This document shows, piece by piece, positions 9,387 through 36,509 of a stretch of DNA of 36,816 nt. Source of the DNA: an uncultured Bacteroidales bacterium (GTDB lineage Bacteria > Bacteroidota > Bacteroidia > Bacteroidales > Muribaculaceae). Numbering within the stretch: the first letter of the stretch is position 1; each line of letters opens with the position of its first letter. Below the pieces are notes generated by a model. It was not told the origin of the DNA, did no database searches, and saw only the letters and a list, made by a program, of their open reading frames with translations. The stretch spans positions 1-36,816 of the forward strand of contig CACYSG010000020.1 in NCBI GenBank assembly GCA_902776955.1. The letters run 5' to 3'. The translations under genes were made by a program, and so were the position numbers.

Positions 9387-9549
9387 GTTGTATACCCAGA
9401 AAAAATGGGGAAAAAGCCCGCATTGGTCTATAAAAAACCGACGCTGCACGGCATAAACGGCCCTTGAACGCCCACGGTTGCAAATGTGGCACATGATATG
9501 CAGATTAACGGGTGATTAGTCTATTATTTATGAATATTTGTCTAAAAAA

Positions 9550-9581
9550 TTTGCGATAATTACTCAAATAGGCTAATTTTG
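9550..9581 (+). promoter_or_regulatory. Promoter of the 9622 gene
   Basis: TTTG (9550-9553), 20 bases, TAATTTTG (9574-9581): a full match to the Bacteroidota sigma-ABfr consensus. The predicted start near 9588 gives a leader of about 34 bases. Confidence 0.75.
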
Positions 9582-9621
9582 ACGCAACAAACGTTTACAA
9601 ACTATTAAAAACATACGCACT

Positions 9622-11181: not shown

Positions 11182-11199
11182 AATTACAGTATTTTGCAG

Positions 11200-11207
11200 C
11201 AAAGTTA
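11200..11207 (-). promoter_or_regulatory. -7 promoter box TAACTTTG of the DUF4923 gene
   Basis: Exact TAnnTTTG match on the minus strand, 18 bases upstream of the ATG at 11181. No clear -33 TTTG. Confidence 0.55.
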
Positions 11208-11260
11208 CGTCTTTTCCCCAAAAAGTCGGGTAAAAACACCGAGAGAAACAAAAAAAATAG

Positions 11261-11268
11261 TAATTTTG
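11261..11268 (+). promoter_or_regulatory. -7 promoter box TAATTTTG of the glycosyltransferase gene
   Basis: Exact TAnnTTTG match on the plus strand, 78 bases upstream of the ATG at 11347, divergent from the box at 11200-11207. The upstream 20 bases are A-rich and lack a TTTG. Confidence 0.55.
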
Positions 11269-11346
11269 CAGGTTGTCAGCTTTTGACAAAATGATTAGAA
11301 TAGATAGTAAACAACTACACAACAATAAAATAAAGAACTCACAATT

Positions 11347-12489: not shown

Positions 12490-12538
12490 AAATCGACAGG
12501 GGTCATTCAGGCCCTGACAAGTCCTGATAGAAACATCA

Positions 12539-12573
12539 CGCCGCCGCCCGATTTCAATTTTCGGACGGCGGCG
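12539..12573 (+). terminator. GC-rich hairpin after the glycosyltransferase gene
   Basis: CGCCGCCG (12539-12546) pairs with CGGCGGCG (12566-12573), and CCGA with TCGG inside, separated by one mismatch; the loop is AT-rich. It lies 50 bases past the stop. No immediate T run, though AT-rich sequence follows within 15 bases. Confidence 0.6.
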
Positions 12574-12615
12574 CGCCATAGGATAAAGATTATTATTATT
12601 TCTTTGCTATTCCAC

Positions 12616-12678
12616 CCCTAAACCCTAAACCCTAAACTCTAAACTTCAACCAATAGAAGCGTGCTTCCATTGGTTGAA
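12616..12678 (-). terminator. TTCAA-hairpin plus TTTAGAG/TTTAGGG tail at the FadL gene 3' end
   Basis: Read on the minus strand, 3 bases after the stop codon: a 16-base inverted repeat (12645-12678) opening TTCAACCAAT and closing ATTGGTTGAA, with one mismatch and a 2-base loop. GTTTAGAGTTTAGGGTTTAG follows directly (down to 12616). The same design, with unrelated stem sequence, is found at 19487-19558 and 23638-23713. Confidence 0.7.
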
Positions 12679-12681
12679 TAA

Positions 12682-19697: not shown

Positions 19698-20744
19698 TTA
19701 TTTTCCCTCGTTGGAGAGGAGGAAGCGGCGCTTGGGGGCGATGCGGTCAAAGTCTTCCTTGGTCAACGGGGCGATGCGGTTGAGCACGGCCGACAGGCGT
19801 TGAGCGATCTTGAACTCCACGGGCTCGCTCTCGGGCACCTCACACAGCAGCTGCGACACGCGTGACTTGATGGCCGAAAACTCAAACACCATCGAGGTGT
19901 TGAACCAGGCGTCAGCATGGCTGGCAAAGGGCAGGATCCACAGGTTCTCGCCGCGCAGCACGCCGGGCCACCACTGGAGGGTCTGCAGGGCACTGGCACC
20001 ACGGCTGTTATAGTCACGATAGATGCGGCGCAGCAGGCGGTTATCGTGTTCGTCAAGGCCGGTTTTCTCGCCATAGTAGATGGTCGCCTGGGCGGTGACA
20101 AAGAGGCGGAATTTCAGTTCCTCGGGGATGTCGGGGATGAGCAGGGGGTTGAGCGCGTGCAGGCCCTCGAGGAACAGGAGGCTGTTGCTCTCGAGCTTGA
20201 GGGTGTTGCCGCGGTAGGTGCGCTCGCCCTTGACGTAGTCATAGGTGGGCATCGACACCTGGTCACCGGCCAGCAGGCTGGACACATCGCGGCTCAACTG
20301 CTTCAGGTCCAGGCCGTAGAATGACTCGTAATCAATATCGCCGTTGGGGTCGAGGGGGCGCTGGTCGAGGTTGAGGAAATAGTTATCAAGCGAGACCACG
20401 CAGGGCTGGATGCCGTTGTCCCTGAGCATGTGGTTGAGAAAGCGCGAGGTGGTCGTCTTGCCCGAGCAGGAGGGGCCGGCGACAAGGACGATGCGCAGCT
20501 GCTCCTGATGGAAGCGGCGGGTGATCTCGGTTGTGATGCGCTCCAGGCGGCGGCTGTGCTGCACCTCGTCCTCGGCGATAAGGTCGGGTGCCATGCCCTG
20601 GGATATCACCTCGTTGAACAAGGCGATACCGTCCTGCCCCTGTGACTCCATGCGGCGGATGTCACCGCAGAATTCCTCCAGGGACAAGTGATGGCCATTG
20701 CCGTTATTTTCCTGTTGAGCGACGCTCGCTGTATTGTCAGTCAT
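19698..20744 (-). CDS. Uridine kinase-like nucleoside kinase, short paralogue
   Basis: A 348-residue P-loop kinase of the phosphoribulokinase/uridine kinase family (PF00485). Walker A is GPSCSGKTT at residues 90-98; the uridine-kinase type S-L-D-N-Y-F substrate segment and D-I-D-Y-E-S-F-Y-G follow. It is clearly homologous along its length to the C-terminal half of the next gene (20843-22534): both have LDNYF, a LLAGxxVxxPTYxx stretch, GNTLKL, and NRLLRRIxRDxxxRG. It lacks the N-terminal TGS-like region of that protein. The probable activity is phosphorylation of uridine/cytidine or another nucleoside. It lies in tandem with its paralogue, separated by a terminator. Confidence 0.87.
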   Translation of the reverse strand: MTDNTASVAQQENNGNGHHLSLEEFCGDIRRMESQGQDGIALFNEVISQGMAPDLIAEDEVQHSRRLERITTEITRRFHQEQLRIVLVAGPSCSGKTTTSRFLNHMLRDNGIQPCVVSLDNYFLNLDQRPLDPNGDIDYESFYGLDLKQLSRDVSSLLAGDQVSMPTYDYVKGERTYRGNTLKLESNSLLFLEGLHALNPLLIPDIPEELKFRLFVTAQATIYYGEKTGLDEHDNRLLRRIYRDYNSRGASALQTLQWWPGVLRGENLWILPFASHADAWFNTSMVFEFSAIKSRVSQLLCEVPESEPVEFKIAQRLSAVLNRIAPLTKEDFDRIAPKRRFLLSNEGK

Positions 20745-20842: not shown

Positions 20843-22534
20843 CTAGTAGTGGAAGCTGCTACCTCCCAGGAATTCACGCAGCAAGCTCGTACTGGGTATG
20901 TCTTTCTCATCCAGGGGCTCGAAGTAGCTGAGGAACTTCATTAAGCGCGAAGCCTCGGCATACTCGGGAGCGCTGGTGGGAACCTGCTGCAGGATGGGCA
21001 GCGCGTAGTTTTTCATCACCGCCAACTCAAACAGCAGTGATGAGTTGAACATCGCGTCGGCATTCTCGTGGAAGGGCATGATCCACTTGTCCTCGCCACG
21101 GCGCACACTGGGCCAGCGGCGGATGGTATCCCTGGCGTCGACACCACGATACTTGTGGTCGCGGATGATGCGGCGCAGCAAGCGGTTGTCGTAGGTGCCT
21201 ATCCAGTTGTGGTCGTCGATGTTGAGCGTGGTGAGCGCTGACACAAAGATGCGGAACTTCTGCTCATCGGGTATCGAGCGCGTGAGCTCGGGATTGAGGC
21301 CGTGAATGCCTTCCATGAGCAGGATATCGCCGTCTCCCAGCTTGAGGGTGTTGCCCAGGTACTCACGTTTCCCATCCTTGAAGTTATAGGTGGGCAGAGC
21401 CACCTCCTTGCCGGCAAGCAGGTCGGTCACGTCCTGGTTGAACTTATCAAGGTCGAGGGCGTAAAGCGACTCGTAGTCCTTTTCGTTCTTGTTGGTCTCG
21501 TCAAGGGGCGTATCATCACGATTGACGAAGTAGTTGTCCAGCTCGATGACCTTGGGCACAATGCAGTTGGCGACAAGCTGGATGGCAAGGCGCTTAGACG
21601 AGGTGGTCTTACCGCTCGACGACGGCCCGGCGATGAGCACCACGCGGGCACCGCCCTCGTGATAGCGGCGGGTGATCTCGTCGGCAATCTGGATGAAGTG
21701 CTTGTTGTGCAGCGCCTCAACGACGTTGATGAGCAAGGGCGCGAAGCCGGCCCTGATGGCGTGGTTGAGCTCGCCGACGTCACCCAGACGGATAATCTTG
21801 TTGAAGTTGATGTAGTCGGTGAAGGCCTGGAACAACTTGGGCTGAGGCTCCCAGGAGGCCACCCGGGTGATGTCCTTGCGGTCGGGTCCCAGCAGGAGCA
21901 TGCCTTTCTCATAGGGCACCAGGTCAAACACGCTTAAGATTCCCGTCGAGGGAACCAGCGGCCCGTAGAAACTGTCGACGATGTCGTCGAGCTTGTAATA
22001 GACGGTGTAGAGCTGGTTGATGCCCTCAAGCACGCGCACCTTGTCCTTGAGGCCCTGCTTGCGGAACATCTCGATGACATCGGTCGTCAAGCGCTCGCGG
22101 CGCAGGAAGGGCAGGTCGGCAGCGATAATCTCGCCCATGCGCTGCTTGAGCTGGGCGATGACCTCGGGGGTGACGAACTCCTCCTCGTGCTTGATCTGGC
22201 AGTAGTGGCCGTTGCTGATGCTGTGCTGGATGCACAGTCGCTTGCCGGGGTACAGGTCGTTCAGGGCCTTGTACAGCACCATGCACAACGACCGCGTGAA
22301 CACGCGGTAACCCGCATTGCTGGTGATATCGATGAACTCAACGTGCTTGGGGGAGAAAACAGGATAGTGCAAATCCTCGACCTTATTATTCACCAGCACA
22401 CACACAGCATCGCCTTGGAGGTCAAGCCGCCCCTTGATGGTCTCATAGAGGTCGATGAGCGCTTCGCCACCGTCGATGTTGATATACTCGTTGGTGTTCT
22501 TGCAGAACACTTTGAGTTCATCGTACTTTTTCAT
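20843..22534 (-). CDS. TGS-domain nucleoside kinase (uridine kinase-like)
   Basis: A 563-residue protein. The N-terminal part (about 1-70) resembles a TGS domain. It is followed by a segment like the second additional domain of threonyl-tRNA synthetase (IQHSISNGHYCQI near 102-114). The C-terminal half is a phosphoribulokinase/uridine kinase domain with Walker A GPSSSGKTT at 303-311 and I-E-L-D-N-Y-F-V-N. This architecture is widespread in Bacteroidota and Firmicutes as a 'nucleoside kinase'; the exact nucleoside is unsettled. The frame is open to a GTG at 22567, but the -7 box at 22567-22574 overlaps that codon, so the ATG at 22534 (MKKYDELKVFCKN) is the start. Confidence 0.9.
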   Translation of the reverse strand: MKKYDELKVFCKNTNEYINIDGGEALIDLYETIKGRLDLQGDAVCVLVNNKVEDLHYPVFSPKHVEFIDITSNAGYRVFTRSLCMVLYKALNDLYPGKRLCIQHSISNGHYCQIKHEEEFVTPEVIAQLKQRMGEIIAADLPFLRRERLTTDVIEMFRKQGLKDKVRVLEGINQLYTVYYKLDDIVDSFYGPLVPSTGILSVFDLVPYEKGMLLLGPDRKDITRVASWEPQPKLFQAFTDYINFNKIIRLGDVGELNHAIRAGFAPLLINVVEALHNKHFIQIADEITRRYHEGGARVVLIAGPSSSGKTTSSKRLAIQLVANCIVPKVIELDNYFVNRDDTPLDETNKNEKDYESLYALDLDKFNQDVTDLLAGKEVALPTYNFKDGKREYLGNTLKLGDGDILLMEGIHGLNPELTRSIPDEQKFRIFVSALTTLNIDDHNWIGTYDNRLLRRIIRDHKYRGVDARDTIRRWPSVRRGEDKWIMPFHENADAMFNSSLLFELAVMKNYALPILQQVPTSAPEYAEASRLMKFLSYFEPLDEKDIPSTSLLREFLGGSSFHY

Positions 22535-22566
22535 AAAATACGCAATGCTTACGGGTTTATAAGCCA

Positions 22567-22574
22567 CAAAGGTA
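22567..22574 (-). promoter_or_regulatory. -7 promoter box TACCTTTG of the long kinase gene
   Basis: Exact TAnnTTTG match on the minus strand, 32 bases upstream of ATG 22534. It rules out the GTG at 22567 as a start. Confidence 0.55.
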
Positions 22575-22720: not shown

Positions 22721-23482
22721 ATGAAAGTAAATTTTTTAGTTATGGCAATGATGATTGTTGGAGCCATGTGCGGTTGCACGGCCCAAAACAGTGTTGAGAG
22801 TGTAGAAAAGGGGTGTGACGTTTTCAAGACCCAGAACGGCACGACAGTGAAGATGTACTGCATCAAGCACGGCAGCGTGAGGATGCAGGTGGGCGACAAG
22901 TGGATCTATGTGGACCCGGTGACCAAGGCCGTACAGCCCGTGACCGACTACACCACCCTACCCCAGGCCGATTACATCCTGGTGACGCACGAGCACTTTG
23001 ACCACCTGGACTCGGTGGCCATCAACCAGTTGAGCAAGGAGGGCACCGTACTCATCACCAACGCCCGCTGCCACGAGATCCTGGGCGGCAAGGGCGACGT
23101 GATGGCCAATGGCGACAGCCGCACCCTGGCCGAGGGCTGGACGGTGGATGCCGTGCCCGCCTACAACAATTCGCCCGAGAAGCTGCAGTTCCACCCCAAG
23201 GGGCGTGACAACGGCTTCGTGCTCACCATCGAGGGCATGCGCATCTACATCGCCGGCGACACCGAGGACATCCCCGAGATGGCCGACATCAAGGACATCG
23301 ACGTGGCCTTCCTGCCCTGCAACCTGCCCTACACGATGACGCCCGAGCAGTGTGCCCACGCCGCCACGATGATCAAGCCCACCGTGCTCTTCCCCTACCA
23401 CTACGGCCAGACCGACATCCAGCAGGTGGTCAAGCTCCTTGACGGCAGCGGCATCGACGTGAGAATCAGGGACTACCAGTAA
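22721..23482 (+). CDS. UlaG-like metallo-beta-lactamase fold hydrolase, lipoprotein
   Basis: A 253-residue protein with an apparent lipoprotein signal (MKVNFLVMAMMIVGAMCGC, lipid Cys at residue 19) and a metallo-beta-lactamase fold of the UlaG-like group. Metal ligands are visible: T-H-E-H-F-D-H-L-D gives His90, His92, Asp94 and His95; Asp180 in AGDTED; and His227 in FPYHYGQ. UlaG itself is an ascorbate-6-phosphate lactonase in the cytoplasm. An exported relative more likely hydrolyses an unknown periplasmic or surface substrate. A CTAGA repeat and then a terminator follow. Confidence 0.88.
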   Translation: MKVNFLVMAMMIVGAMCGCTAQNSVESVEKGCDVFKTQNGTTVKMYCIKHGSVRMQVGDKWIYVDPVTKAVQPVTDYTTLPQADYILVTHEHFDHLDSVAINQLSKEGTVLITNARCHEILGGKGDVMANGDSRTLAEGWTVDAVPAYNNSPEKLQFHPKGRDNGFVLTIEGMRIYIAGDTEDIPEMADIKDIDVAFLPCNLPYTMTPEQCAHAATMIKPTVLFPYHYGQTDIQQVVKLLDGSGIDVRIRDYQ

Positions 23483-23722: not shown

Positions 23723-25438
23723 TTACCAACCGGGGTTCTGGCCAATCTGCGGATTCAGGTTGCGCTGATCGTCGGGAATGGGGAACAGGTTGTACTTGGG
23801 ATCCCACTTGCGGGGAGCACCGTTGTTCGAGCAGTTGATGTAACCATCGGGGTCAACATTGATCTCATCAAGGCTGATGGGAGCATATCCGAGAACGTAT
23901 GCACCACGGCACAGGTTGGGATTGTTGTCGGTGTCGAGCAACGAGAGCTGGTTCCAACGCAGCAGCGAGAAGTAGCGGTCGTTCATGCAGTACATCATCT
24001 CGACGCGGCGCTCACGGCGAACCTCCCAAATGATGGGGCTAACGCCCATGTTGTTGGCGGGATCGGCCTCAACGCTGGTCAGCAGGTGGGGCATGCTCAC
24101 GCGGTCACGCAGCAGGTTGATGGACTTGTCCAGGTCAGCCTGGGTGATGTTACCCAGCTCGGCGCAAGCCTCGGCATAGTTCAACAGGATCTCGGCATAC
24201 CAGAAGATGGGAGCGTCGGTCCAGTTACCATAGGTGCTCTGACGGTTGGTGTTGTCGATCAGGTTGGTATCGAACAGGAATACACCATAGCCCGTCGAAG
24301 CGGTGGACTGGGCACCGCCAAAGCGGGCGTAACCACTGCCGGGGAATTGGAGGATCTTGTCCACCTGAGCGCTCAGGCGCGGGTCGCGGTTAGCGAGCAC
24401 GTTGCTGATGTCGATGTGGGGAGCCTCGCCCAGACCCGAGTTGTCGTCGAGAGTGACAACAGTACCGTGGTCGGTCTTGTTCAGAGCGGTGGTAGCCAGG
24501 GGCTTACCATCCTTGAACAGGTAGCTGTCGAAGGCATCCTTGGTCATACCGTTAACCTGGGTAGAACCGCAGGTGTAGTCGATGGTACCGTGAGCAAAGG
24601 TGCTCTGGATGTACTTCTTGTACATGATCATCTCGGGGTTACCGGCCAGGTCAAGCGAGTTGAAATTGGCCTGATAGTTACTGTTCAGGCTGAACTTGCC
24701 CGAGTTCATGATCTGCTCACAAGCGTTCTTGGCCTCGGTGAGGAACTTGTTGGCGCGCTCATTGTTCTTGGTCACATACTTGCTGTAGTCGCCCTCATAG
24801 AGGCAAACCTCGGCCTTCATGGCCAGGGCAACCCACTTGTTGAATTCGGTGCGCGAGTTGTCATTGGCGGTGATGTTGGTGCAAGCGTAGTTCAGGTCCT
24901 CAAGCACCTTGTCCATCACGTTGTTGCGGGGCTGACGGGGACCATACAGGATATCCTCATCATTGGGGTCAAGCACCTTGTCCACCCAGTAGCAGTCACC
25001 ATAGCTGCGAACGAGCTTGTAGTGCTGCCATGCACGGTACAGGCGGCCGATACCCAGCCAGTTGGCCTTCTTGGCGTCGGTCAGCGTCGATACGGTGGGC
25101 ACGGCTTCAATAAGGGTATTGGCGCGACGGATCTCCACATAGGGGGTGTTCCATGCAGCGGCGCTACCGGGAACGTTCATAAAGGTCCACTTGGTGATAC
25201 CGGTCGATGCCTGGTCGTCGTTCAGCGTGTTGAAGTAGTAGTCACCACTACCGCTGCCATAACCCGTGAAGGTGTTATAGAAGTAGTTGGCGAACAGCTG
25301 GACGTTGGTCTCACTGGTAAAGTAGTTGTCCTTGGTAAACTGATCATAGGGTTCGGTGTCGAGGATATCATCGCACGAAGCCAACGAGAGCATGAAAACA
25401 CCCAGGCCAACCAGTATAATTGATTTGAAAAGTTTCAT
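23723..25438 (-). CDS. SusD/RagB family surface lipoprotein (SusD1)
   Basis: A 571-residue lipoprotein: MKLFKSIILVGLGVFMLSLA then SC, with lipid Cys22 followed by D-D-I-L-D-T-E-P, the usual SusD start. Typical SusD features are the N-terminal helical TPR-like region (RRANTLIEAV, RLYRAWQHYKLVRSYGD), a late I-W-E-V-R-R-E-R-R-V-E-M segment, and the conserved C-terminal end NLFPIPDDQRNLNPQIGQNP. SusD proteins cap the SusC barrel and bind the substrate outside the cell. The gene follows SusC1 by 115 bases and is probably cotranscribed with it. The first 18 bases after codon 3 are identical to those of SusD2. The ligand is unknown. Confidence 0.95.
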   Translation of the reverse strand: MKLFKSIILVGLGVFMLSLASCDDILDTEPYDQFTKDNYFTSETNVQLFANYFYNTFTGYGSGSGDYYFNTLNDDQASTGITKWTFMNVPGSAAAWNTPYVEIRRANTLIEAVPTVSTLTDAKKANWLGIGRLYRAWQHYKLVRSYGDCYWVDKVLDPNDEDILYGPRQPRNNVMDKVLEDLNYACTNITANDNSRTEFNKWVALAMKAEVCLYEGDYSKYVTKNNERANKFLTEAKNACEQIMNSGKFSLNSNYQANFNSLDLAGNPEMIMYKKYIQSTFAHGTIDYTCGSTQVNGMTKDAFDSYLFKDGKPLATTALNKTDHGTVVTLDDNSGLGEAPHIDISNVLANRDPRLSAQVDKILQFPGSGYARFGGAQSTASTGYGVFLFDTNLIDNTNRQSTYGNWTDAPIFWYAEILLNYAEACAELGNITQADLDKSINLLRDRVSMPHLLTSVEADPANNMGVSPIIWEVRRERRVEMMYCMNDRYFSLLRWNQLSLLDTDNNPNLCRGAYVLGYAPISLDEINVDPDGYINCSNNGAPRKWDPKYNLFPIPDDQRNLNPQIGQNPGW

Positions 25439-25504: not shown

Positions 25505-25571
25505 CCTAGTTGACAGGTTCCAGTTAGTAGAAAACTCTAAACTTGATTTATACTTACTTCACGATGATCTC
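25505..25571 (-). repeat. Exact 67-base inverted repeat, copy 1 (SusC1-SusD1 junction)
   Basis: Read on the minus strand, this stretch covers the last five codons and stop of SusC1 and the first 49 bases of the spacer (GTATAAATCAAGTTTAGAGT... to ...CCTGTCAACTAGG). It is identical, base for base, to 33622-33688 in the other orientation. By my alignment, 91 of the first 96 spacer bases match. The rest of the spacer is a (A)CTAGGGA/CTAAAAA-type tandem repeat. Confidence 0.9.
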
Positions 25572-28500
25572 ACAGATGGATACACGGTTCCAGCTCAGTT
25601 CATCAAACATGTCGCTGATGCCCTGACCCTGGGCGTTGATGCGCTTGGCATCGATACCATACTTCTTGACGAGCATATCCTTCACGCTGGCGGCACGGCC
25701 CTCAGCGAGCTTGATGTTGTGGTCGGCAGGACCGTCCTTGGAGGCATAGCCGTTGATGGTGCAGGTAGCCTCGGGGTGGCTCTTCATGTAAGCGGCGATG
25801 CGCTCCACGTTGGGCTGCTGGTCGGTGCTCACGGCCGTCTTGTTCACGGGGAAGTGAACCAGGATGGTCATGTACTGCAGCGACTTGTCAATCATGTTGG
25901 TCTTGCTCTTCTGGCAGTCGTTGAGGTCCTTCTGGAGCTGGTTAGCACGATTGTTGGCAGCGTTGAGCTGGTTCTGCAGATCGGCGATGCGGTTGTTGTA
26001 AGCGTTCTGGGCATCGGCGAGCTGGGCGCGCAGGTCATTGATCTGAGCGTTCAGGGCGCTGTTGTCGGCGGGAGCGGCAGCGGCAGAGCGGGTGTTGCTG
26101 CCGAAGGTGAGCTGCAGACCTACACTGTAGGTGCGCATGATGGGATCGGTACGACCCCAAACACCGTTACCATAGCTACCGACACCGGTGTTAATCTCGG
26201 GATCGAGACCGGTATGGTTGCTGTGGTTGATGATGTCGAACAGGTTGTCGGTCGAAGCATAGATGCGCAACTTCTCGATCAACGCCTTGCGGGTGATGTG
26301 CTGCGGCAGGGTGTAACCCACGGTGATGTTCTTCATGCGCAGGTAGCTCATGTTCACGAGATACTTGCTCTGGGGATAGAAGTTGAACTTACCCAGGTCG
26401 AGAATGTCGCTCGAAGCGGTACCACGGCCAGCGCCACCAGCCCACATGCGGGGGAACTCGGCGTTCTGGTCAATAAAATGATTGGCATAGTCAGCCTCGG
26501 TCACATAGCTGATCTGGTTGGTGTAGATAGCGTCGGCACCACGCATGAACGGCATCACGAATGCAGACTGGGTCCACATGTCGCGCTTGCCCACGCCCTG
26601 CAGGTAGAAGTCAACGTCGAAGCCCTTCCAGGCAGCGCCCAGACGCAGTGAGTACTGATAGCGCGGGGTGAAGTTACCGATGCGCTTCAGGTCACCGTGA
26701 TCCTCGGGAGTACCCTTACCCCAATCGATGACACCGTCACCGTTCAGGTCCTTGAACTTGATGTCACCAGGGCCATAAACGAAGCCATTGGACTGCAGCT
26801 TGGTCTGGTTGGCAACACCCTGCTTGTAGGTACCGTCGTCATTGAAGTCGTTGAAATCGAAGTAGCGGTCGGTCTCAAAGCCCCAGATTTCGCCATACTC
26901 CTTGCCAGAGTAGTTGGTGTTGATCATATTGTTGCTGTCCCACTTGGTAATCTTAGACTTGTAGTCATTCACGATGGCAGTAGCATAGAAATCAACATTG
27001 CCAAAGCGGTTGTGATAGTCAACCTGGACTTCCCAACCACGGGTGCGCAACGAACCAGCATTCTCAAAGGCAGCACTTGCACCGATGACCGAAGGCAGAG
27101 CCTTGCCGGGAGCGAGCATGTCCTTGTTGGTACGCTGGAACCAGTCGGCAGTCACGTTCAGGTGACCGTTGAAGAACGCCAGGTCAAGACCCACGTTGAG
27201 GGTCTGGATGGTCTCCCACGTCAGGGATTCAGAAACCATCTTGGGCAAGCCAAAGTAGTCATACATGGAGTTGCCAGTGCCAATCCAGTTTACACCGTTG
27301 GTCACCTTGCCCATGGTCTCGAGGAACATGTAGTTACCAACCCTGTCGTTACCGATTTCACCATAGGAAGCACGGAGCTTGGCATTGCTGATGGTATTCT
27401 TGATGGGTTTCCAGAAGGGCATCTCACTGATGCGCAAACCGAGTGATGCCGAGGGGAAGAACGCCCACTGGTCCTTCTTGGGGAACTTGCTCGAACCGTC
27501 GTAGCGGCCATTCAACTCGAGCAGGACAATGCCCTTGTAGTCATAGTTGATGCGGCCGAAGAAGCCTGCCGAGCCCCAGTGGTCGTGCTCGTGGCTGTAG
27601 CTATAGAACTGGTTGGTCAGAGCCAGCTCGGGCAGGTTCAGGTCCTGAAGACCGTGCTGCTCAAAGTAGAGGTACTCATACTCGTACTTCTCCATGTTGG
27701 CACCCACCTTCAAGTTGAAGTTGTGGGTATCCTTGATCGACTTGAAGAAGTCGAAGTAGCCGTTAGCTACGTGGCCGTTCCTGAAGCTGCGGTCGGTCTC
27801 GATGAAAGTCGAACCAGTGATGTCCACGGGACCCTGAGGATTCAGACCCCAAGTGTTGTAAACAACCGAGGGGAGACCAATGCCCTTGTAACGACCTTCC
27901 GTCTTGATGAAGGTGTAGTCGGCATTGAAGGTCAGGCCATGACTGAAGTCAATCTTGGCAAACGCGCCTAGACGGGTGTTATGCCTCTTGTAGTAGCAAT
28001 CGCCACCAGTGTTGCGGCCACCAATCATCGTGCGGGCGTCATACTGCTTGCCGTCGTTAGGATCTACAAAGTAGCCGTAGGGGCCGAAGAACGAACCCCA
28101 GCGCCACAGGTACTGGTAGGTACCGGCACCACGCTTGTAGGGGGTGTTATAGGTCCTGTCAACATAGCTGATGCGGGTACCGAGTTCCAACCAGTCGGTA
28201 GCACGTACCGACAGGTTAGCGGTAACATTGTAACGACGCAGCTTGTCAGGGTTGAAGTTCATCAACGACTGCTTCTGGTTGTAACCTACCGAGGTGTAGA
28301 AGTTGATGCGGCCCGAGCTGCCGGTTACACTCAGGGTGTGGCTCTGCGAGGGAGCGTGATTGTTGAAGATGATGCCGGGCACATCCCAGTTGGCATAGTA
28401 ACCGTTCTCGTCATAGTCGTCACCATAGACCATCTCACGATATTTTTCCTTGATGTCGCCATGCTTGCGGATCCAGTTGTTGATGCCGTTCTGGAAAGCT

Positions 28501-29387
28501 TCGCTGTCCATGTACATACCGAAGAGCTCCGATGCAACGCCCATGCGGTGGTTCACGTCGTTGAGGGCGGCAACCTGGGTGGGAACGTTGGGATAGTCGG
28601 GCAAGGTGGTAGCCTGGCTCCAAGCGAAGTTGTTGTTGTAGTTTACCTTGATGTTGTCCTTGACGCGGGCGGTCTTGGTGGTGACCATAATCACACCGAA
28701 GGCTGCTTGCGTACCGTAAATCGAGCTCGAAGCGGCGTCCTTCAAGACACTGATGTTCTCGATATCGGCGGTATTCAGGTCGCTCAGGCTACCGGGAACA
28801 CCGTCAATGATAACCAGCGGGCCTTGAGTGCCGTCGCCGGACAGCGTACCGATACCACGAATCACTACCGAAGCATCAGCGCTGATGTCACCGTTAGCGT
28901 TCAAAATGGTCAAGCCGGGGACGGTACCCTGCAGATTCTTGGCCACGTCGGTCTCGGACTTGGAACCGAGCACCTTGTCAACGTCCACAGTGCTCACAGC
29001 ACCGGTCAAGTTGGCCTTGCGCTGTGTACCGTAACCAACGACTACGACCTCATCGAGTTTAGCGTTATCCTCGGCGAGAACGACGCGCATGCCGCTGGCG
29101 GCACGCACGGTCTGCGTCTTGTAGCCGATAAACGAAACCTGAAGCTTAGCGTTGGGGCTAGCTTTGAACGAGAAGTTACCGTCCACATCGGTCGATGTGC
29201 CACGGGTCGTTCCAACCTCGACAATGCTGGCGCCGATGACGGGTTCACCCTGTTCATCGACAACGCGGCCTGTCACAATGCTGGTGGCGGACGTAGCCGA
29301 CACCTGGGGCGCGGGTGCTGCCTGGACCTGATAAGCAGGACCACATAGCATCAACAAGGCGCCCAAAAGAGCTAAATGTCTTTTCAT
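25554..29387 (-). CDS. SusC/RagA TonB-dependent transporter fused to coiled coil and OmpA domain (SusC1)
   Basis: A 1277-residue protein. In order: signal peptide (MKRHLALLGALLMLCGPAYQ, cleavage near 23); carboxypeptidase-regulatory-like domain (about 37-107, VTGRVVDEQGEPVIGAS); TonB-box-like LDEVVVVGYGTQ near 111; plug (about 123-235, VPGLTILN, VVIRGIGT, IDGVPGS, VLKDAASSSIYG); and a 22-strand type barrel ending YSVGLQLTFGSN near 1098. SusC proteins normally stop there. Here a coiled coil follows (about 1107-1163, LNAQINDLRAQLADAQ), then an OmpA C-terminal-like domain to the end (NVERIAAYMKSHPEA, GYASKDG, N-I-K-L-A-E-G-R-A, GQGISD). The Arg of the peptidoglycan-binding site is kept, but the usual GHTD Asp is Ser. 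The start is ATG 29387, not the GTG at 29393. SusD1 follows. The barrel end should be periplasmic, so the fusion could reach peptidoglycan. Confidence 0.95.
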   Translation of the reverse strand: MKRHLALLGALLMLCGPAYQVQAAPAPQVSATSATSIVTGRVVDEQGEPVIGASIVEVGTTRGTSTDVDGNFSFKASPNAKLQVSFIGYKTQTVRAASGMRVVLAEDNAKLDEVVVVGYGTQRKANLTGAVSTVDVDKVLGSKSETDVAKNLQGTVPGLTILNANGDISADASVVIRGIGTLSGDGTQGPLVIIDGVPGSLSDLNTADIENISVLKDAASSSIYGTQAAFGVIMVTTKTARVKDNIKVNYNNNFAWSQATTLPDYPNVPTQVAALNDVNHRMGVASELFGMYMDSEAFQNGINNWIRKHGDIKEKYREMVYGDDYDENGYYANWDVPGIIFNNHAPSQSHTLSVTGSSGRINFYTSVGYNQKQSLMNFNPDKLRRYNVTANLSVRATDWLELGTRISYVDRTYNTPYKRGAGTYQYLWRWGSFFGPYGYFVDPNDGKQYDARTMIGGRNTGGDCYYKRHNTRLGAFAKIDFSHGLTFNADYTFIKTEGRYKGIGLPSVVYNTWGLNPQGPVDITGSTFIETDRSFRNGHVANGYFDFFKSIKDTHNFNLKVGANMEKYEYEYLYFEQHGLQDLNLPELALTNQFYSYSHEHDHWGSAGFFGRINYDYKGIVLLELNGRYDGSSKFPKKDQWAFFPSASLGLRISEMPFWKPIKNTISNAKLRASYGEIGNDRVGNYMFLETMGKVTNGVNWIGTGNSMYDYFGLPKMVSESLTWETIQTLNVGLDLAFFNGHLNVTADWFQRTNKDMLAPGKALPSVIGASAAFENAGSLRTRGWEVQVDYHNRFGNVDFYATAIVNDYKSKITKWDSNNMINTNYSGKEYGEIWGFETDRYFDFNDFNDDGTYKQGVANQTKLQSNGFVYGPGDIKFKDLNGDGVIDWGKGTPEDHGDLKRIGNFTPRYQYSLRLGAAWKGFDVDFYLQGVGKRDMWTQSAFVMPFMRGADAIYTNQISYVTEADYANHFIDQNAEFPRMWAGGAGRGTASSDILDLGKFNFYPQSKYLVNMSYLRMKNITVGYTLPQHITRKALIEKLRIYASTDNLFDIINHSNHTGLDPEINTGVGSYGNGVWGRTDPIMRTYSVGLQLTFGSNTRSAAAAPADNSALNAQINDLRAQLADAQNAYNNRIADLQNQLNAANNRANQLQKDLNDCQKSKTNMIDKSLQYMTILVHFPVNKTAVSTDQQPNVERIAAYMKSHPEATCTINGYASKDGPADHNIKLAEGRAASVKDMLVKKYGIDAKRINAQGQGISDMFDELSWNRVSICEIIVK

Positions 29388-29931
29388 AAGCACGTTTTAA
29401 TTAGTTAATATAGTTGATAATTCAATTTAGTTTTTTCAGACTTTGCCACTAAGAATGCACGCGGGCGCGCATCTTATATTTTTTTAACGAGTTGCAAAAT
29501 TCTATAAAATTTTTGAAATAGCCAAAAAATCAAGGGAAATTTTACAAATGTAAATGTTAAAAATCACGAAAAAACGTACTTAATCCAAAAAATTCGGTCT
29601 TGACTTTTACTGTTTTCGGTAGGATTTTGGTATTTTTTCGTTCAATAATTTGGTCAAGTTAATTTTTGTTTGCAAATTTGCCTACTGGAATGCCTGCTAT
29701 AGCGATTTGCTCTTAGCTGAAAATTAGGTTTTTGCTCTTTTATAAGGTAGTTTTTGCTCAAGAAAACAGCAAAAATGTCATTTTTTCAACAAAATGCTTG
29801 TTTGGCTTAATCTTTTTTTGCACTTTTGCCTTTTGAAAGTCAATTATTGACCCTTAAAAAACGTTACTGACAATTAATCGATGAGATATTAACCAATTCA
29901 TTAACTTCAAATCAATTAAAGCAAAGTGCGT
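29388..29931. promoter_or_regulatory. AT-rich divergent control region between the two SusC genes
   Basis: A 544-base gene-free region, strongly AT-rich compared with the coding flanks. It holds a promoter for SusC1 (29495-29526). Three direct repeats of TTTGCTC on the plus strand lie at 29706-29712, 29731-29737 and 29753-29759 (periods 25 and 22), which could be operator half-sites. For SusC2 I find only imperfect boxes (TTTG at 29801-29804 with C/T-rich TTTTG sequence about 20 bases on). No anti-sigma/ECF pair or hybrid two-component regulator is encoded in the window. Confidence 0.6.
29495..29526 (-). promoter_or_regulatory. Promoter candidate for SusC1
   Basis: On the minus strand: TTTG (29523-29526), 20 bases, GAATTTTG (29495-29502), one or two bases off TAnnTTTG. 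The predicted leader is about 100 bases. Confidence 0.5.
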
Positions 29932-32900
29932 ATGAAAAAACAATTAGCACTGCTCTGCACACTGGCGATAGCCATGGGCATCCCTGCTGGACTGGCCCCG
30001 AGTCAGTACAACACGGGATTCACGGCTGTTGCCCAGAGCAACCGAGTTACAGGCGTCGTCAAGGACGCCAACGGAGAGCCGATGATTGGCGTTAATGTGA
30101 GGGTAAAAGGCACGAATACGGGTACGACCACCGACTTGGATGGCCGTTACTCGATTAAGGCCGACCCCAACCAGACGCTTGTCTTCTCCTTTGTGGGCTA
30201 TGACGCGATTGAGATTCCCGCGTCGCAAGCCGCCAACGTGCAGTTGACCGAAGGCGCCAACACCCTGCAGGATGTAGTGGTAACGGCTGAGTTCGGTATG
30301 AAACGTGTCGCCCGCACCGTGGGTTCCTCGGTGCAGAATGTGAAGGCCCAGGACATCATCGAGTCGGGCCGCACCGACTTTATCTCGGCCCTGCAAGGTC
30401 GTGTGTCGGGTATGAGCGTCGTTAGTTCGGGTGGTGCCCCTGGTGCATCGACTACGGTAGTGCTGCGCAGTGCCACGTCACTGAGTGGTAACAACCAGCC
30501 GCTGTATGTCATCGACGGTATCCCCATGAACAACACCTCGTTCAACCCCACGACCGGTCTGGCAGCTGCCGATGGTGGTATTGCCGGCCTGACGCCGCGC
30601 ACCACCGACTACTCGTCGCGTGGTAACGACTTCAACCCCGAGGACATCGAGTCAATGACCGTGCTGAAGGGTGCTGCCGCAGCCGCTCTGTACGGTAGTG
30701 ACGCCTCTAACGGTGCTATCATCATCACCACCAAGAAGGGCCGCTCGGGCCGCGCTCGCGTGACCTACAGCAACCAGATCACCTGGTCCAAGGCCTATGG
30801 CTGGCCCGAGGTTCAGGACAAGTACACCAATGGTGCCTATGGTGCTGCCAACTTCTACTTCACCCGTCGTTACGGTTCGCTGTATGACGGCTCGCTGCCT
30901 TATTATGACAACGCTGCCGCCGTGCTGCAGACCGGTTTCATGCACCGCCACAACCTGTCGCTGGAGACTGGTAACGAAAAGATGTCTTTGCGTGCATCGG
31001 CTTCCTACTTCGACCAGGACGGTGTCATCAAGACCACGTCGCTGACGCGTACCAACCTGTCGCTGGCCGGCCGTGCCGAGCTGACCAAGTGGTTATCGAT
31101 GGAAGGTAGCATGCAGTATGTGAACGCCAAGAACAACAAGGCCCCGCGTGGTTCCACCGGTCCCATCCGCAACAGCTATCGCTGGCCGAGCGTCGATGAC
31201 ATGAGCATCTATCTGGCCGAGGACGGTGCCCACATGAAGTATCCCGCATACTACACCGACACCGACCTGCTGAACCCGCTGTATGGCTTGAAGAAGAACC
31301 TGATGCACGATGAAACCGACCGTATCATCAGCGCTTTCTCGCTGAACTTCACGCCGATCCGTCACACTTACCTGCGCCTGCAGATGGGTTGGGACGTGAG
31401 CACTTCATCCTATGAGAACGGTATTCACCCCTACTATACCACCTCTGCTAACCAGAGTGTTGATGACTCCAACAACAGCGGTTCTTACCACATCACCAAG
31501 TACAACACGAGCGACCCGACGCTTAACGTCCTCGCCGGTTACAACAACAGCTGGCTTGACAACAAGTACTCGCTGGGTATCCAGGTGGGTTACCACCAGT
31601 TGGAGAACGGCGTGACGAGCCTGTCGTCCTATGGTACCAACTTCAAGGTGATTGACTTCTACAGCATCAACAACTGTACCGAGAGCACCGTAGTGAGCAA
31701 GAAACGCTCCACCAAGCGCCGCGTGCAGGCTATCTCGGGCCAGTTAGAGCTGGGTTACAACAACATGATCTTCTTGACCGGCCGCTTCCGTAACGACTGG
31801 TCCTCGACCCTGCCCAAGGACAATAACCACTACTTCTATCCCGCCGGTGAGCTTTCAATCGTGCTGAGCGAGATGGGCTTCATGAAGCATGTGGGCTTTA
31901 TCAATTACCTGAAACTGCGTGGCGCTATCGCCCAGGTCGGTAAGGATGCTCCCGTGCTCTCGATCGATCCCGAGCTCGAGCCCACCGGCCTGACCGGTGG
32001 CGGTTACAAGTATGGCTACACCGGTCCCAACCGCAGCCTCAAGCCTGAGATGACCACCTCCTACGAGGCTGGTGTTGAGGCCCGCTTCTGGAACGACCGC
32101 ATCAATGCCGACTTCACCTGGTTCCGCACCCATTGCGCCGACCAGATCGTGACCGGCTTCCGCATGAGTTACGCTACCGGTTTCGTGCTGAACAATATGA
32201 ACGTGGGTACGTTTAACACGTGGGGCTGGGAAGGCCACGTCGATGTTGACGTAGTCCGCACCCCCGACGTACGCTGGAACGTGGGCGTGAACCTCTCGCA
32301 CACCAACAGTGAGGTCGTTTACCTGCCCGAGAACCTGGTTGAGTTCTATAACGCCTACACCTGGAACTCAGGTAACATCCGCAACGGTGTGATGCGTGGA
32401 CATCCCATCAGCACCGTAACCGGTCTGGCCTACGAGCGCAACGATGCTGGCCAGATTCTGATTAACCCGACCACCGGTCTGCCCCGCACGAGGTCTGATT
32501 GGACTATCATGGGTAACCGTGAGCCCAAGCTGCGCTTCGGTCTCACCACCTCGTTGAGCGTGAAGAACTGGCGCCTGAGTGCCATGTTCCAGGGCCGCTA
32601 CCATGCCGACGTTGTCAACGCTACCATGCGTGACATGTACCAGGATGGTTTGAACTGGCTCTCGGTTGACATGCGTGAGAAGGGCTATGTAGTATTCGAC
32701 GGCGTGCTGTACGACGGCAAGCAGAATACTGATAATCCCACTAAGAACACCATCGCCGTCAACCTGGGCGAATATGGTCAGTATATCTATTACGGTGCCG
32801 ATGAGGACTGGATCCAGCACAATATCAACTACATCCGCTGCCAGGAATTGCGTCTGGCCTATATCATCCCGACGAACTGGCTGCGCCGCGTGACTCGCGG

Positions 32901-33639
32901 TGTGATGCAGAACGGTAGCATCTATGTGGCTGGTAACGACTTGTTCACCATCACCAACTACACTGGTACCGACGTTGCCGGTAACACCATGTCGGCTGCT
33001 GCCGGTGGTACTGGTGGTGAGGGTTACGACTGCTGGTCGCTGCCCACGCCACGCAGCTACTCTGTCGGCCTGAGCGTGACCTTCGGTTCCAACGACGAGA
33101 CCGCCAAGCCCGTTTATACCAACACCAGTGCGCTCAATGACCAGATCAACGACCTGCGTGCTCAGCTCGCCAACGCCGAGAACACCTTCAACGGCCGTCT
33201 GGCCCAGTTGCAGGCTGACCTCGATGCCGCTAACCGCGCTCTGGCCAACTGCCGCAACGACCTGAACGCTGCCAAGAATGTTGTTCCCGAGACCAAGATT
33301 GTGGACAACAGCAAGCAGTTCATGAACATCCTGGTTCACTATCCCGTGAACAAGACCGCCATCGGTGCTGACCAGCGTCCCAATGTGGAGCGCATCGCTT
33401 CCTACATGAAGAGCCATCCCGAGGCAACCTGCGTCATCAAGGGTTATGCTTCGCCCGAGGGCAATCAGGAGAACAACATCAAGCTCGCTAACGGCCGTGC
33501 CGCCAGCGTGAAGGACATGCTCGTTAACAAGTATGGTATCGCAGCCAACCGCATCAAAGCCGAGGGCCAGGGTATCAGCAACATGTTTGACGAATTGAGC
33601 TGGAACCGTGTTTCCCTCTGCGAGATCATCGTGAAGTAA
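29932..33639 (+). CDS. SusC/RagA TonB-dependent transporter fused to coiled coil and OmpA domain (SusC2)
   Basis: A 1235-residue paralogue of SusC1 with the same unusual layout: signal peptide (MKKQLALLCTLAIAMGIPAG...); carboxypeptidase-regulatory-like domain (VTGVVKDANGEPMIGVNV, about 39-105); TonB-box-like LQDVVVTAEFG near 112; plug with GRVSGMSVV, VIDGIPMNN and VLKGAAAAALYGSDAS; barrel ending YSVGLSVTFGSN near 1053; coiled coil (about 1065-1115, LNDQINDLRAQLANAE, LQADLDAANRALANC); and an OmpA-like domain (about 1130-1235, GYASPEG, N-I-K-L-A-N-G-R-A). The barrels of the two proteins are very different, while the fused C-terminal parts are close. The start is ATG 29932, not GTG 29926. SusD2 and a lipoprotein follow. 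The transported substrate is unknown; oligopeptides (as in RagAB) and glycans are both possible. Confidence 0.95.
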   Translation: MKKQLALLCTLAIAMGIPAGLAPSQYNTGFTAVAQSNRVTGVVKDANGEPMIGVNVRVKGTNTGTTTDLDGRYSIKADPNQTLVFSFVGYDAIEIPASQAANVQLTEGANTLQDVVVTAEFGMKRVARTVGSSVQNVKAQDIIESGRTDFISALQGRVSGMSVVSSGGAPGASTTVVLRSATSLSGNNQPLYVIDGIPMNNTSFNPTTGLAAADGGIAGLTPRTTDYSSRGNDFNPEDIESMTVLKGAAAAALYGSDASNGAIIITTKKGRSGRARVTYSNQITWSKAYGWPEVQDKYTNGAYGAANFYFTRRYGSLYDGSLPYYDNAAAVLQTGFMHRHNLSLETGNEKMSLRASASYFDQDGVIKTTSLTRTNLSLAGRAELTKWLSMEGSMQYVNAKNNKAPRGSTGPIRNSYRWPSVDDMSIYLAEDGAHMKYPAYYTDTDLLNPLYGLKKNLMHDETDRIISAFSLNFTPIRHTYLRLQMGWDVSTSSYENGIHPYYTTSANQSVDDSNNSGSYHITKYNTSDPTLNVLAGYNNSWLDNKYSLGIQVGYHQLENGVTSLSSYGTNFKVIDFYSINNCTESTVVSKKRSTKRRVQAISGQLELGYNNMIFLTGRFRNDWSSTLPKDNNHYFYPAGELSIVLSEMGFMKHVGFINYLKLRGAIAQVGKDAPVLSIDPELEPTGLTGGGYKYGYTGPNRSLKPEMTTSYEAGVEARFWNDRINADFTWFRTHCADQIVTGFRMSYATGFVLNNMNVGTFNTWGWEGHVDVDVVRTPDVRWNVGVNLSHTNSEVVYLPENLVEFYNAYTWNSGNIRNGVMRGHPISTVTGLAYERNDAGQILINPTTGLPRTRSDWTIMGNREPKLRFGLTTSLSVKNWRLSAMFQGRYHADVVNATMRDMYQDGLNWLSVDMREKGYVVFDGVLYDGKQNTDNPTKNTIAVNLGEYGQYIYYGADEDWIQHNINYIRCQELRLAYIIPTNWLRRVTRGVMQNGSIYVAGNDLFTITNYTGTDVAGNTMSAAAGGTGGEGYDCWSLPTPRSYSVGLSVTFGSNDETAKPVYTNTSALNDQINDLRAQLANAENTFNGRLAQLQADLDAANRALANCRNDLNAAKNVVPETKIVDNSKQFMNILVHYPVNKTAIGADQRPNVERIASYMKSHPEATCVIKGYASPEGNQENNIKLANGRAASVKDMLVNKYGIAANRIKAEGQGISNMFDELSWNRVSLCEIIVK

Positions 33640-33753: not shown

Positions 33754-35640
33754 ATGAAATCATTCAAATCAATTATACTGTGTGCGCTGGCTTGCTTGGC
33801 TATGGGGCTGACATCCTGTGAAGACTACCTGGATGTGAACAAGAACACCGACGCCCCCGACTATGTGGAGGGTTACCTCTACCTGGCTGGTATCCAGCAG
33901 GCTTATCAGGGCATCTACTGGGACCTGCGCGGTATCGCCCCGCTCACCCAGATGATGGGTACCTCGAGTTACATCAACTTTGCCAATCACTACTATAATA
34001 AGAGTAATGATGCCTGTGGTGAGGCTTGGCGCATGGTTTACTGGAACCAGGGCATGAACCTGGAGAACATGATTAACCAGAGTGTCGAAGCCGAGAACTG
34101 GACATTGGCAGGTATCGGCTTGGCGATGAAGGCTTTCTCATGGGACCTGTTGACCAAGGTCAATGGTGAGGCCCCCATGAAGCAGGCCTATGAGGCTGGA
34201 CGTCTCGACCATCAGTATGACTACCAGTATGACATCTATCCCCAGGTGCGCGAGTGGGCTTACAAGGCTATCGAGTACCTGCAGAAGGAGGATAACTCGT
34301 CCTATGGTAACCGCATCAAGAACAATGACTTCATCTATGGCGGTGACAAGGACAAATGGGTGAAGTTCGCCTATGCAGTGATTGCCCGTAATTTGGTTTC
34401 GTTGACCAACAAGAAGGACTTCAAGGAGAAATACTACAATGAGTTCCTTGAGGCTGTCAGCAAGTCATTTGCCAGCAACGATGACAACGCTACCTTGAAG
34501 ATTGCCGGTGGTGGCGCTGATGCTGCCGAGAGTAGTTACAACAACTTCTGGGGCACCTATCGCGGCAACCTGGTTTACAGCTATTTCCAGCACGACTATC
34601 CTGTGCAGCTGTTCACGGGTACCATCCGCAAGTATGATGAGGAGGGTGAATTCATCGACACCGAGGACACCCTGGAGCTCAACAAGAAGCACTATCCCTA
34701 TCAGTTGCTTGACAAGCAGATTACCAGTGACACCCTGCCCGATGTCGGTCACTTCGACCCGCGCCGCCTCGTGAAGTTGGCGACTACCGACAGCAGCAAC
34801 TATGCTACCATCGCCGACCGTGAGGTGCTTCGCAGCCTCTACTATGTGGGTTCGGGCTTCACCGGTGCTGCCGGCCCCATCGCTACTGCTCCCTCGTTCT
34901 GGGGCCGCAATGCCACGTCCAACACCACCTATGATGGTGCTGGTCACTGGCTGTATCACGACGATGCTCCCTACATCATGACGACCTATGCCGAGCTGAT
35001 GTTCGACCTCGCTGAGGTACAGTTCAAGTATGGCAGCAAGAGCGATGCATTCGAGACCTGGAAGAAGGCCATGAAGGCCGATATGGACTTCACCGCCAGC
35101 TATATCGTTCCCGGTACCTTGAACGGCAACTACCGCCAGGGCGACCGTGTGACCAAGGCTACTTTCAACGCCCTGGCCGAGGAATACCTCAACGGTCCCT
35201 ACGTGGCTGGCCTGCCCCTGGGCGACTTCTCGCTCTCGCACATCATGATGCAGAAATACCTCGCCCTCTATCCTTGGGGCGCTATGGAAGTCTGGGTTGA
35301 CCTGCGCAAGTACTTCTATGATATTCAGTACACTGGCGAGTATCCCAAGTATGGCAATGGTTGGGACAAGACCACACTCGACCAGAAGCGCGACGAAGAT
35401 CCCACCAAGGTTTACAAGGGCTTCTATTTGCTGCCCGCTCAGGTTGAGGGCCGCCGTGGTACCTACAATGTGGATAACAACGGATCACCGTGCTTCCGCA
35501 TACGCCCGCGCTACAATTCCGAGTACATGTGGAACAAGGGCAATCTCGATGCACTCAAGCCCATCGGTGGTCAAGAACTTGATTACCAGTGCTCAATCAT
35601 GTGGTTCTGCTATCCTGGTGACATGCCCACTTCAAGATGA
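33754..35640 (+). CDS. SusD-like surface lipoprotein (SusD2)
   Basis: A 628-residue lipoprotein: MKSFKSIILCALACLAMGLT then SC, lipid Cys22, followed by E-D-Y-L-D-V-N-K-N-T-D-A-P, which is typical of the SusD/RagB-like_2 subgroup. Other family-like segments are G-T-S-S-Y-I-N-F, A-F-S-W-D-L-L-T, a middle Y-G-G-D-K-D-K-W-V-K-F-A-Y-A-V-I-A-R-N-L, and M-M-Q-K-Y-L-A-L-Y near the end. It caps SusC2 and should bind the imported ligand outside the cell. It starts 114 bases after SusC2 and is probably in the same operon as the next lipoprotein. SusD1 belongs to a different SusD subgroup, although its signal-peptide DNA is nearly identical. Confidence 0.93.
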   Translation: MKSFKSIILCALACLAMGLTSCEDYLDVNKNTDAPDYVEGYLYLAGIQQAYQGIYWDLRGIAPLTQMMGTSSYINFANHYYNKSNDACGEAWRMVYWNQGMNLENMINQSVEAENWTLAGIGLAMKAFSWDLLTKVNGEAPMKQAYEAGRLDHQYDYQYDIYPQVREWAYKAIEYLQKEDNSSYGNRIKNNDFIYGGDKDKWVKFAYAVIARNLVSLTNKKDFKEKYYNEFLEAVSKSFASNDDNATLKIAGGGADAAESSYNNFWGTYRGNLVYSYFQHDYPVQLFTGTIRKYDEEGEFIDTEDTLELNKKHYPYQLLDKQITSDTLPDVGHFDPRRLVKLATTDSSNYATIADREVLRSLYYVGSGFTGAAGPIATAPSFWGRNATSNTTYDGAGHWLYHDDAPYIMTTYAELMFDLAEVQFKYGSKSDAFETWKKAMKADMDFTASYIVPGTLNGNYRQGDRVTKATFNALAEEYLNGPYVAGLPLGDFSLSHIMMQKYLALYPWGAMEVWVDLRKYFYDIQYTGEYPKYGNGWDKTTLDQKRDEDPTKVYKGFYLLPAQVEGRRGTYNVDNNGSPCFRIRPRYNSEYMWNKGNLDALKPIGGQELDYQCSIMWFCYPGDMPTSR

Positions 35641-35672: not shown

Positions 35673-36509
35673 ATGAAATATTTCAAATATATAGCATTAT
35701 TGCTGCTGCTGGCAGTGACCATGGGCTCCTGTGAGAAGAAGGATGTCGGCTTTATGGCCGAGCCCGTTGACGAGGGCCAGATGGCATACGTGCAGATCTG
35801 CTACTATGCACCTATTTCTACTGTTGCCTCCAATAATATCTACTTTGTTGATCTCAATGGCGTGGAATATGGCAATGACGGTGCTTCCTTCTTGACCACT
35901 TACAACGCTGTTCCATCGGGCGGTGTAAACCTCTATTACGCTGTGAAGGCCGGTCCGCTCAACGTGAGGTTGCACAAGCGTGAGAGTGATGGTAATGGTG
36001 GTTACGTTTATCCCGTTGCCTATGACCAGAGTGTGAATATTGAGGCAGGTAAGCGCTATGGCCTGTTCATTCATGACATGAATAAGCCGCCCATTGCCAT
36101 TGAGATGCAGCCGGTTCCCAAGTTCGGTAAGGCGCTTGACACCGACTCGTTGTGCCGCGTGCAGTTTGTCAACGTGATCTATGAGAACGGTGAACCCATC
36201 AAGGACAAGGTACAGTATGGACTCCAGAACTTGGACACCAAGGAATATGAGCCTGTAGGTGAACCTGTTGCCTTCGGTGAGGTTACGTCATGGTTCATGC
36301 CTGTTGTGCGCAAGACTGTTTATAACAGTTCGGGTTCCCAGCGTCGTGACGTTTGCCTGTTCCGTGTAGATCCTCAGACCAACCAGATCAAGGAGAGGAT
36401 GTTTGATGACTGGTGGACTTGGTACATCGGCCGTGCCTATCGTCAGATTGGTGCTGGTAATGTAGGTGGCTCGCCCGCCCTCACTCTCAAGCAGTTTGTC
36501 ATCCAGTAA
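35673..36509 (+). CDS. Surface lipoprotein, DUF4397-like, third gene of the SusC2 operon
   Basis: A 278-residue lipoprotein: MKYFKYIALLLLLAVTMGSC with lipid Cys20. ATGs at 35667 and 35673 are both possible; I chose 35673 because it begins the signal peptide cleanly. The mature part looks beta-rich: Y-V-Q-I-C-Y-Y-A-P, Y-F-V-D-L-N-G-V-E-Y-G, then L-Y-Y-A-V-K-A-G-P-L-N-V-R-L, and V-N-I-E-A-G-K-R-Y-G-L-F-I-H-D. This pattern is reminiscent of DUF4397 proteins, but I hold that only loosely. It starts 32 bases after SusD2, so it is almost certainly cotranscribed and may be an accessory substrate-binding protein (SusE-like in position). A clear terminator follows. Confidence 0.82.
   Translation: MKYFKYIALLLLLAVTMGSCEKKDVGFMAEPVDEGQMAYVQICYYAPISTVASNNIYFVDLNGVEYGNDGASFLTTYNAVPSGGVNLYYAVKAGPLNVRLHKRESDGNGGYVYPVAYDQSVNIEAGKRYGLFIHDMNKPPIAIEMQPVPKFGKALDTDSLCRVQFVNVIYENGEPIKDKVQYGLQNLDTKEYEPVGEPVAFGEVTSWFMPVVRKTVYNSSGSQRRDVCLFRVDPQTNQIKERMFDDWWTWYIGRAYRQIGAGNVGGSPALTLKQFVIQ

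Follow-up and report, generated by a model that had tools for sequence, protein, structure and literature searches.

The window analyzed here is a stretch of 36,816 nucleotides from an uncultured Bacteroidales bacterium of the family Muribaculaceae in the GTDB lineage (GenBank assembly GCA_902776955.1, contig CACYSG010000020.1, positions 1 to 36,816 of the forward strand). It contains a gene, here named SusC1, for a transporter of the SusC/RagA type that continues in frame past the last strand of its β-barrel. A first reading of the DNA letters and open reading frames (the original prediction) had claimed that a coiled coil and an OmpA-like domain follow the barrel, and this architecture was borne out. 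The gene and its parts are located as follows (barrel classes are described below):

25554 to 29387, minus strand: gene for SusC1, with a barrel of class 0 (subtype 0a) followed by the C-terminal tail; start ATG at 29387, frame open up to GTG at 29393
29040 to 29276, minus strand: CarboxypepD_reg-like N-terminal domain, residues 40-118
28692 to 29018, minus strand: Plug domain, residues 126-234
26097 to 28691, minus strand: SusC barrel, ending in YSVGLQLTFGS; the TIGR04056 match ends at residue 1097 and tailless relatives end at the same strand
25902 to 26063, minus strand: predicted 54-residue helix with conserved coiled-coil core spacing; it is longer than the stalk of the resident OmpA
25557 to 25883, minus strand: OmpA-like domain, residues 1171-1279 (Pfam OmpA at 1181-1262)
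25740 to 25742, minus strand: Ser 1218 (GYAS), opposite the GHTD Asp of AbOmpA in the 3td3 alignment; codon checked
25695 to 25697, minus strand: Arg 1233 (GRA), aligned with the binding-site Arg of AbOmpA

SusC1 matched TIGR04056 with 799.2 bits (cut-off 368.25) over positions 3-981 of 981, that is, to the last position of the profile, and carries the TIGR04057 signature (56.5 bits; cut-off 46.2). The DEVVVVGYG stretch ahead of the plug resembles a TonB box. After the last barrel strand, about 180 more residues follow in frame, including a linker, the predicted helix and the OmpA-like domain. SusC/RagA proteins normally end with the last strand, as had been stated and as is seen in the family profile and in tailless relatives. 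SusC1 does not end there, while its plug, barrel and SusD partner are all complete, and for this reason it is regarded as a SusC variant. The tail domain scored above the gathering cut-off of PF00691 and has the expected OmpA fold in the predicted model. The small N-terminal barrel of whole OmpA proteins is absent, the barrel being of the SusC type. A separate gene on contig C39 of the same genome encodes the resident OmpA (414 amino acids), which is 55% identical to SusC1 over residues 1114-1279.

A second gene of the window, SusC2, is divergent from SusC1 and has the same kind of tail:

29932 to 33639, plus strand: gene for SusC2, with a barrel of class 1; start ATG at 29932, frame open from GTG at 29926
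33100 to 33636, plus strand: SusC2 tail (Pfam OmpA at 33346-33582)

A tail profile, for which SusC1, SusC2, and the OmpA of the same genome were combined, was used to scan 101 genus genomes at an E-value of 1e-15. Matches were found in 95 genomes, 57 with one match and 38 with two or more; the other 6 had none. In each of the 38 multi-match genomes, one match or more falls in a SusC gene or a fragment of one; the single-match genomes, among the matches listed (to E ~1.5e-57), have OmpA-sized genes. In total, the 38 tail-bearing genomes contain 142 matches, about 36 of them in OmpA-sized genes or fragments and about 100 in SusC tails. Tails are often clustered, with four found within ~36 kb on one contig of genome G018 and four within ~29 kb in G054. 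The class make-up varies by genome: classes 0 and 1 lie side by side in the window, and four classes are present in G054. In genome G009 (94% complete), OmpA is of the type seen in the tail-bearing group, yet no tailed SusC was found. Among public records, 71 loci matched the tail profile, several of them being apparently the same contigs as in the genus set. They belong to metagenome-assembled genomes (MAGs) labelled Muribaculaceae, Prevotellaceae, Porphyromonadaceae, or Bacteroidales, with goat, roe deer, water buffalo, and sheep named as hosts in the titles. An assembly error, which the original prediction had given as a possible refutation, and an annotation artefact are excluded for practical purposes by the 38 of 101 genus genomes, by the different classes and contigs, by the public MAGs of several animals and studies, and by the divergent SusC2 with the same tail.

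The proposed clustering of the fusion in one lineage was found as well. No fusion of a barrel end with an OmpA domain (profile A3) was detected outside the genus in overlapping samples of the family (297 genomes, 40 of them from the genus itself), the order (393), and the phylum (395). Scoring covered the best 6 or 4 first-look candidates of each genome, with cut-offs of 1e-42 and 1e-32 in two of the scans, and could miss fusions in which the barrel or the OmpA domain is very different. For the family, matches were listed to E ~1.6e-49. In another genus of the family, two different OmpA-type genes lie side by side (L241; G121:C2, ~81062-82878), with ~0.9 kb between the tail matches.

Elsewhere in the genus, other species have relatives of SusC1 (66-69% and 50-51% identical to it) that end right after the last strand (eight ends inspected). 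Full-length tailed relatives of SusC2 are 89-98% identical to it, and those at 65-74% mostly end near SusC2 residues 1050-1060. On contig C241 of genome G008, two tailless genes are adjacent and divergent (6745-10125, minus strand; 10867-14052, plus strand), arranged like the tailed pair of the window. Thus, the SusC1/SusC2 gene pair also exists without tails, and the sister species provide natural controls.

The original prediction had recognized neither the origin of the tail in the organism's own OmpA nor its occurrence on several SusC classes. In a careful tree of 40 tails (thinned at 88% identity), 21 SusC tails formed one clade (100/99). Nearest to it were four OmpAs, from the own genome and from G112, G009, and G066, and the joint group (100/99) lay within the OmpAs of the genus. 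The tail thus derives from the OmpA of the same subclade. Stalk length, taken as the number of residues between two landmarks, was compared in 74 SusC tails, 20 genus OmpAs, and 10 OmpAs from outside the genus. The SusC tails have 22 residues in 59 cases, 25 in 14, and 21 in one. Among the genus OmpAs, 18 have 11 residues, one has 18, and one did not match the pattern; in the nearest group, 11 of 11 have 11 residues. Outside the genus, stalks of 11 (three OmpAs), 12 (one), and 30 residues (one) were found, and five OmpAs did not match the pattern. The difference of 11 residues equals one hendecad, and the helix core of the SusC tails follows 4-3 steps with one 4-4 step (tail positions 29, 33, 37).

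The number of captures was addressed by alternative topologies in which either the class-0-type tails or the other tails join OmpA. On the careful tree, these had p values of 0.047 and 0.050 in the approximately unbiased test. On a quick tree of 104 rows, neither alternative was rejected (p 0.53 and 0.61), and their likelihoods were above that of the found tree by 2.5 and 9.5 units. A single capture is favored by the longer stalk, which every SusC tail has, and is therefore likely, though not proven; a second capture is not firmly excluded.

The binding-site Arg, which had been described as kept, does not vary among the 48 aligned tails. That Ser replaces the usual Asp was likewise confirmed by the 3td3 alignment; in AbOmpA this Asp contacts the peptide. 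However, the suggestion that binding may be altered in SusC1 owing to this replacement is not supported as it was stated: Ser was found at the Asp position in 74 of 74 SusC tails and in 30 of 30 ordinary OmpAs (20 from the genus and 10 from other Bacteroidales). The site therefore came with OmpA, and an altered site special to SusC was ruled out.

By their barrels, the 39 long tailed SusCs can be divided into four classes. Mean identity between classes is only 23-33% for the barrels versus 65-80% for the tails (60-86% for single tail pairs). In class 0, to which SusC1 belongs, the barrels are of two subtypes, and each subtype comprises one tailed group besides relatives without a tail; hence, at least two changes of tail state took place in this class, according to a quick tree with a long-branch warning at its root. 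Tails that do not correspond to the barrel class were found in three genes: L182 and L183 combine a class 2 barrel with a class-0-type tail, and L162 combines a class 0 barrel with a class-1-type tail. Monophyly was rejected both for all class-0 tails (p 0.006) and for all class-2 tails (p 0.018). Taken with the mismatched tails, these rejections indicate that the tail behaves as a cassette moved between transporter genes. The MAG SRR12081292_bin.74 has two class-0 tailed SusCs, L162 (subtype 0a, class-1-type tail) and L169 (subtype 0b, class-0-type tail).

Such movement, together with the existence of relatives without a tail, is what would be expected if the tail were a neutral hitch-hiker, a single fusion spread among neighboring susC genes by gene conversion and having no strong function. 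This explanation is very improbable, given that the median ratio of nonsynonymous to synonymous substitution rates (dN/dS) of the tails is 0.15-0.19 in the four classes, which corresponds to purifying selection, and that many positions are invariant over the 48 tails. For the barrels, dN/dS was 0.44, 0.12, 0.21, and 0.17 in classes 0, 1, 2, and 3, respectively.

Conservation within the tail bears on another alternative, in which the tail serves chiefly for assembly: SusC copies of the same or other classes, or OmpA, would zip together through their coiled coils in the periplasm into clusters or mixed arrays, and wall binding would be secondary. Coiled-coil spacing of the helix had been proposed from the outset and stands as a prediction. 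Its conserved core spacing with one 4-4 step, the invariant or near-invariant N, L, R, and Q positions of the helix in 48 aligned tails of four classes, and the swapping of tails between classes are all consistent with such a role. On the other hand, the OmpA domain is conserved more strongly than the helix (0.87 versus 0.72), and we consider this explanation unlikely, although it deserves some weight. In one tailed class-0 SusC (L178; ONOU01000038.1, 5616-6104), the frame exits the OmpA tail near its end, giving the terminus GQGISNIRLN; this is either a natural variant or a sequence error.

A broader scheme can be sketched in which an OmpA tail was captured, its stalk lengthened, and the resulting transferable anchor cassette spread through recombination to a number of SusC genes within a single locus. 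Four SusCD importers would then share a stalk and form a mixed wall-anchored array, perhaps with OmpA, the make-up of which could be changed by swapping barrels onto a constant tail. As a whole, this scheme is speculative and rather unlikely.

The remaining genes next to the two transporters are as follows:

23723 to 25438, minus strand: SusD partner of SusC1 (SusD_RagB, SusD-like_3)
33754 to 35640, plus strand: SusD partner of SusC2 (SusD-like_2)
35673 to 36509, plus strand: putative lipoprotein after the second SusD, with a hydrophobic start ending in MGSC and no Pfam match

Thus, a susD gene adjoins both SusC1 and SusC2. Between the divergent frames (29397-29925) the G+C content is 29% versus 55% window-wide, and this stretch probably holds the promoters of both genes. 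Beside the SusC1-SusD pair, there are two adjacent genes with PRK/uridine kinase domains and a gene with a metallo-β-lactamase fold (19701-20744, minus strand; 20846-22567, minus strand; 22721-23479, plus strand). The same three domain types adjoin the class-0 pair of G054 (L107:1925-5678), indicating that the neighborhood is kept. No glycoside hydrolase domain was found by Pfam among all 23 predicted genes of the window; the Pfam GH3 family matched at 7837-9492 is an acyl-ligase family.

Both the SusC and the OmpA parts belong to known families. With SusC/RagA proteins (TIGR04056), SusC1 shares the CarboxypepD-like N-terminal domain, the plug, the SusC signature, the barrel, and the neighboring susD gene; unlike them, it does not stop at the last strand, where the family profile ends. 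For SusC and RagA chains in PDB (8aa4, 5t3r, 6sli, and others; none longer than 1041 residues), the best match lies in the N-terminal domain, plug, and barrel of SusC1, and OmpA-type chains match its tail only. The name of the Oar protein of Myxococcus xanthus means OmpA-related. Like SusC1, Oar has a TonB-dependent barrel and a CarboxypepD_reg domain and is 300-400 residues longer than usual, but the domain described in the relevant part of the source is an N-terminal extension, and that part mentions no C-terminal OmpA domain (PMC6434023). OmpA/OprF proteins (PF00691) also have a barrel, a stalk, and an OmpA-like domain in one chain, and the tail groups with the genome's own OmpA; in contrast to SusC1, OmpA has a reported small 8-strand barrel (PMC12611786), no energized transport, and a shorter stalk. 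PorE of Porphyromonas gingivalis and Pal likewise have an OmpA-like domain tied to the outer membrane, but they are lipid-anchored and are not transporters; binding of peptidoglycan in vitro is reported for PorE (PMC12204202). A precedent for holding transporters at the wall is reported for Neisseria, where RmpM is found with TbpA, LbpA, and FrpB (PMC8497027); RmpM is a separate protein acting in trans, whereas the domain of SusC1 is fused in cis to given transporters. Among the papers listed in searches of open-licence full texts in PubMed Central (PMC), none was seen to describe a C-terminal OmpA domain on SusC or on any other TonB-dependent transporter, which agrees with the earlier statement that no described example was known. 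What is new, to our knowledge, is that the two parts are joined, that this fusion was seen in a single genus among the genomes sampled, and that several classes of transporter carry it.

The original interpretation, in which the added domain could bind peptidoglycan and so fix the transporter in place, is partly supported, and we infer that a peptidoglycan anchor is the best explanation of the tail. Both ends of TonB-dependent barrels face the periplasm; the C-terminus of SusC1 would therefore exit the barrel on the periplasmic side and the tail would hang toward the wall. The helix, ~80 Å if straight (54 x 1.5 Å), would reach in the same direction; the Lpp helix is close to this length. The barrel would import with its SusD as usual, and the OmpA-like domain would bind peptidoglycan, holding the transporter at the wall. 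Expected effects are a defined position with respect to the Ton machinery, resistance to pulling when TonB acts on the plug, and an extra linkage between the outer membrane and the wall. Overall, SusC1 is probably a TonB-dependent SusCD-type importer held at the wall by the periplasmic half of its own genome's OmpA, fused after the last strand, and the tail probably ties other such transporters of these uncultured gut bacteria to the wall as well.

Several observations weigh against wall anchoring. The Asp of the binding site is replaced by Ser in the tails and in all 30 OmpAs checked, and peptidoglycan binding by such OmpAs is itself assumed; a YiaD-like OmpA-domain lipoprotein of the same genome (L001; G000:C111, 1138-1854) keeps the classical GHTD. 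Many species of the genus have no tail. In class 1, dN/dS is higher in the tail (0.19) than in the barrel (0.12), so there the barrel is more constrained. The joint model of plug, barrel, and tail (22 rows) had a predicted local distance difference test score of 35.7 and was not used for relative position. In Escherichia coli, mobility was reported not to be raised in OmpA without its peptidoglycan-binding domain (PMC3637615). Because of this last result, "couples it mechanically" may, by analogy, be a more apt description of the role of the tail than "fixes it in place", and it fits the report that OmpA of E. coli connects the lattice of outer-membrane proteins with the wall and shares in bearing the mechanical load (PMC11648852).

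The same load sharing is consistent with a role of the tail in envelope strength, in which abundant SusCs would bear load as links from the outer membrane to the wall, with transport independent of the tail. Work cited in PMC12204202, which proposes other tethers, is reported there to have detected no pal genes in Bacteroidetes in the database used, and a SUS complex is reported among the two most abundant outer-membrane components of Flavobacterium johnsoniae (PMC12611786). Nevertheless, OmpA is kept in 36 of the 38 tail-bearing genomes, the own genome has other OmpA-domain genes (8 OmpA-domain matches in all, including the YiaD-like lipoprotein with GHTD), and relatives manage without the fusion, which makes a purely structural role doubtful and quite unlikely.

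Anchoring of the transporter at the wall would bear on the question of whether a TonB-dependent transporter benefits from a set place there, so far approached via separate proteins such as RmpM; here, the case is in cis. For the role of the tail, the tailless relatives in sister species are the natural controls. The capture of this domain from the OmpA of the host itself, and its presence on several transporter classes, make a clear case of modular evolution of β-barrel proteins.

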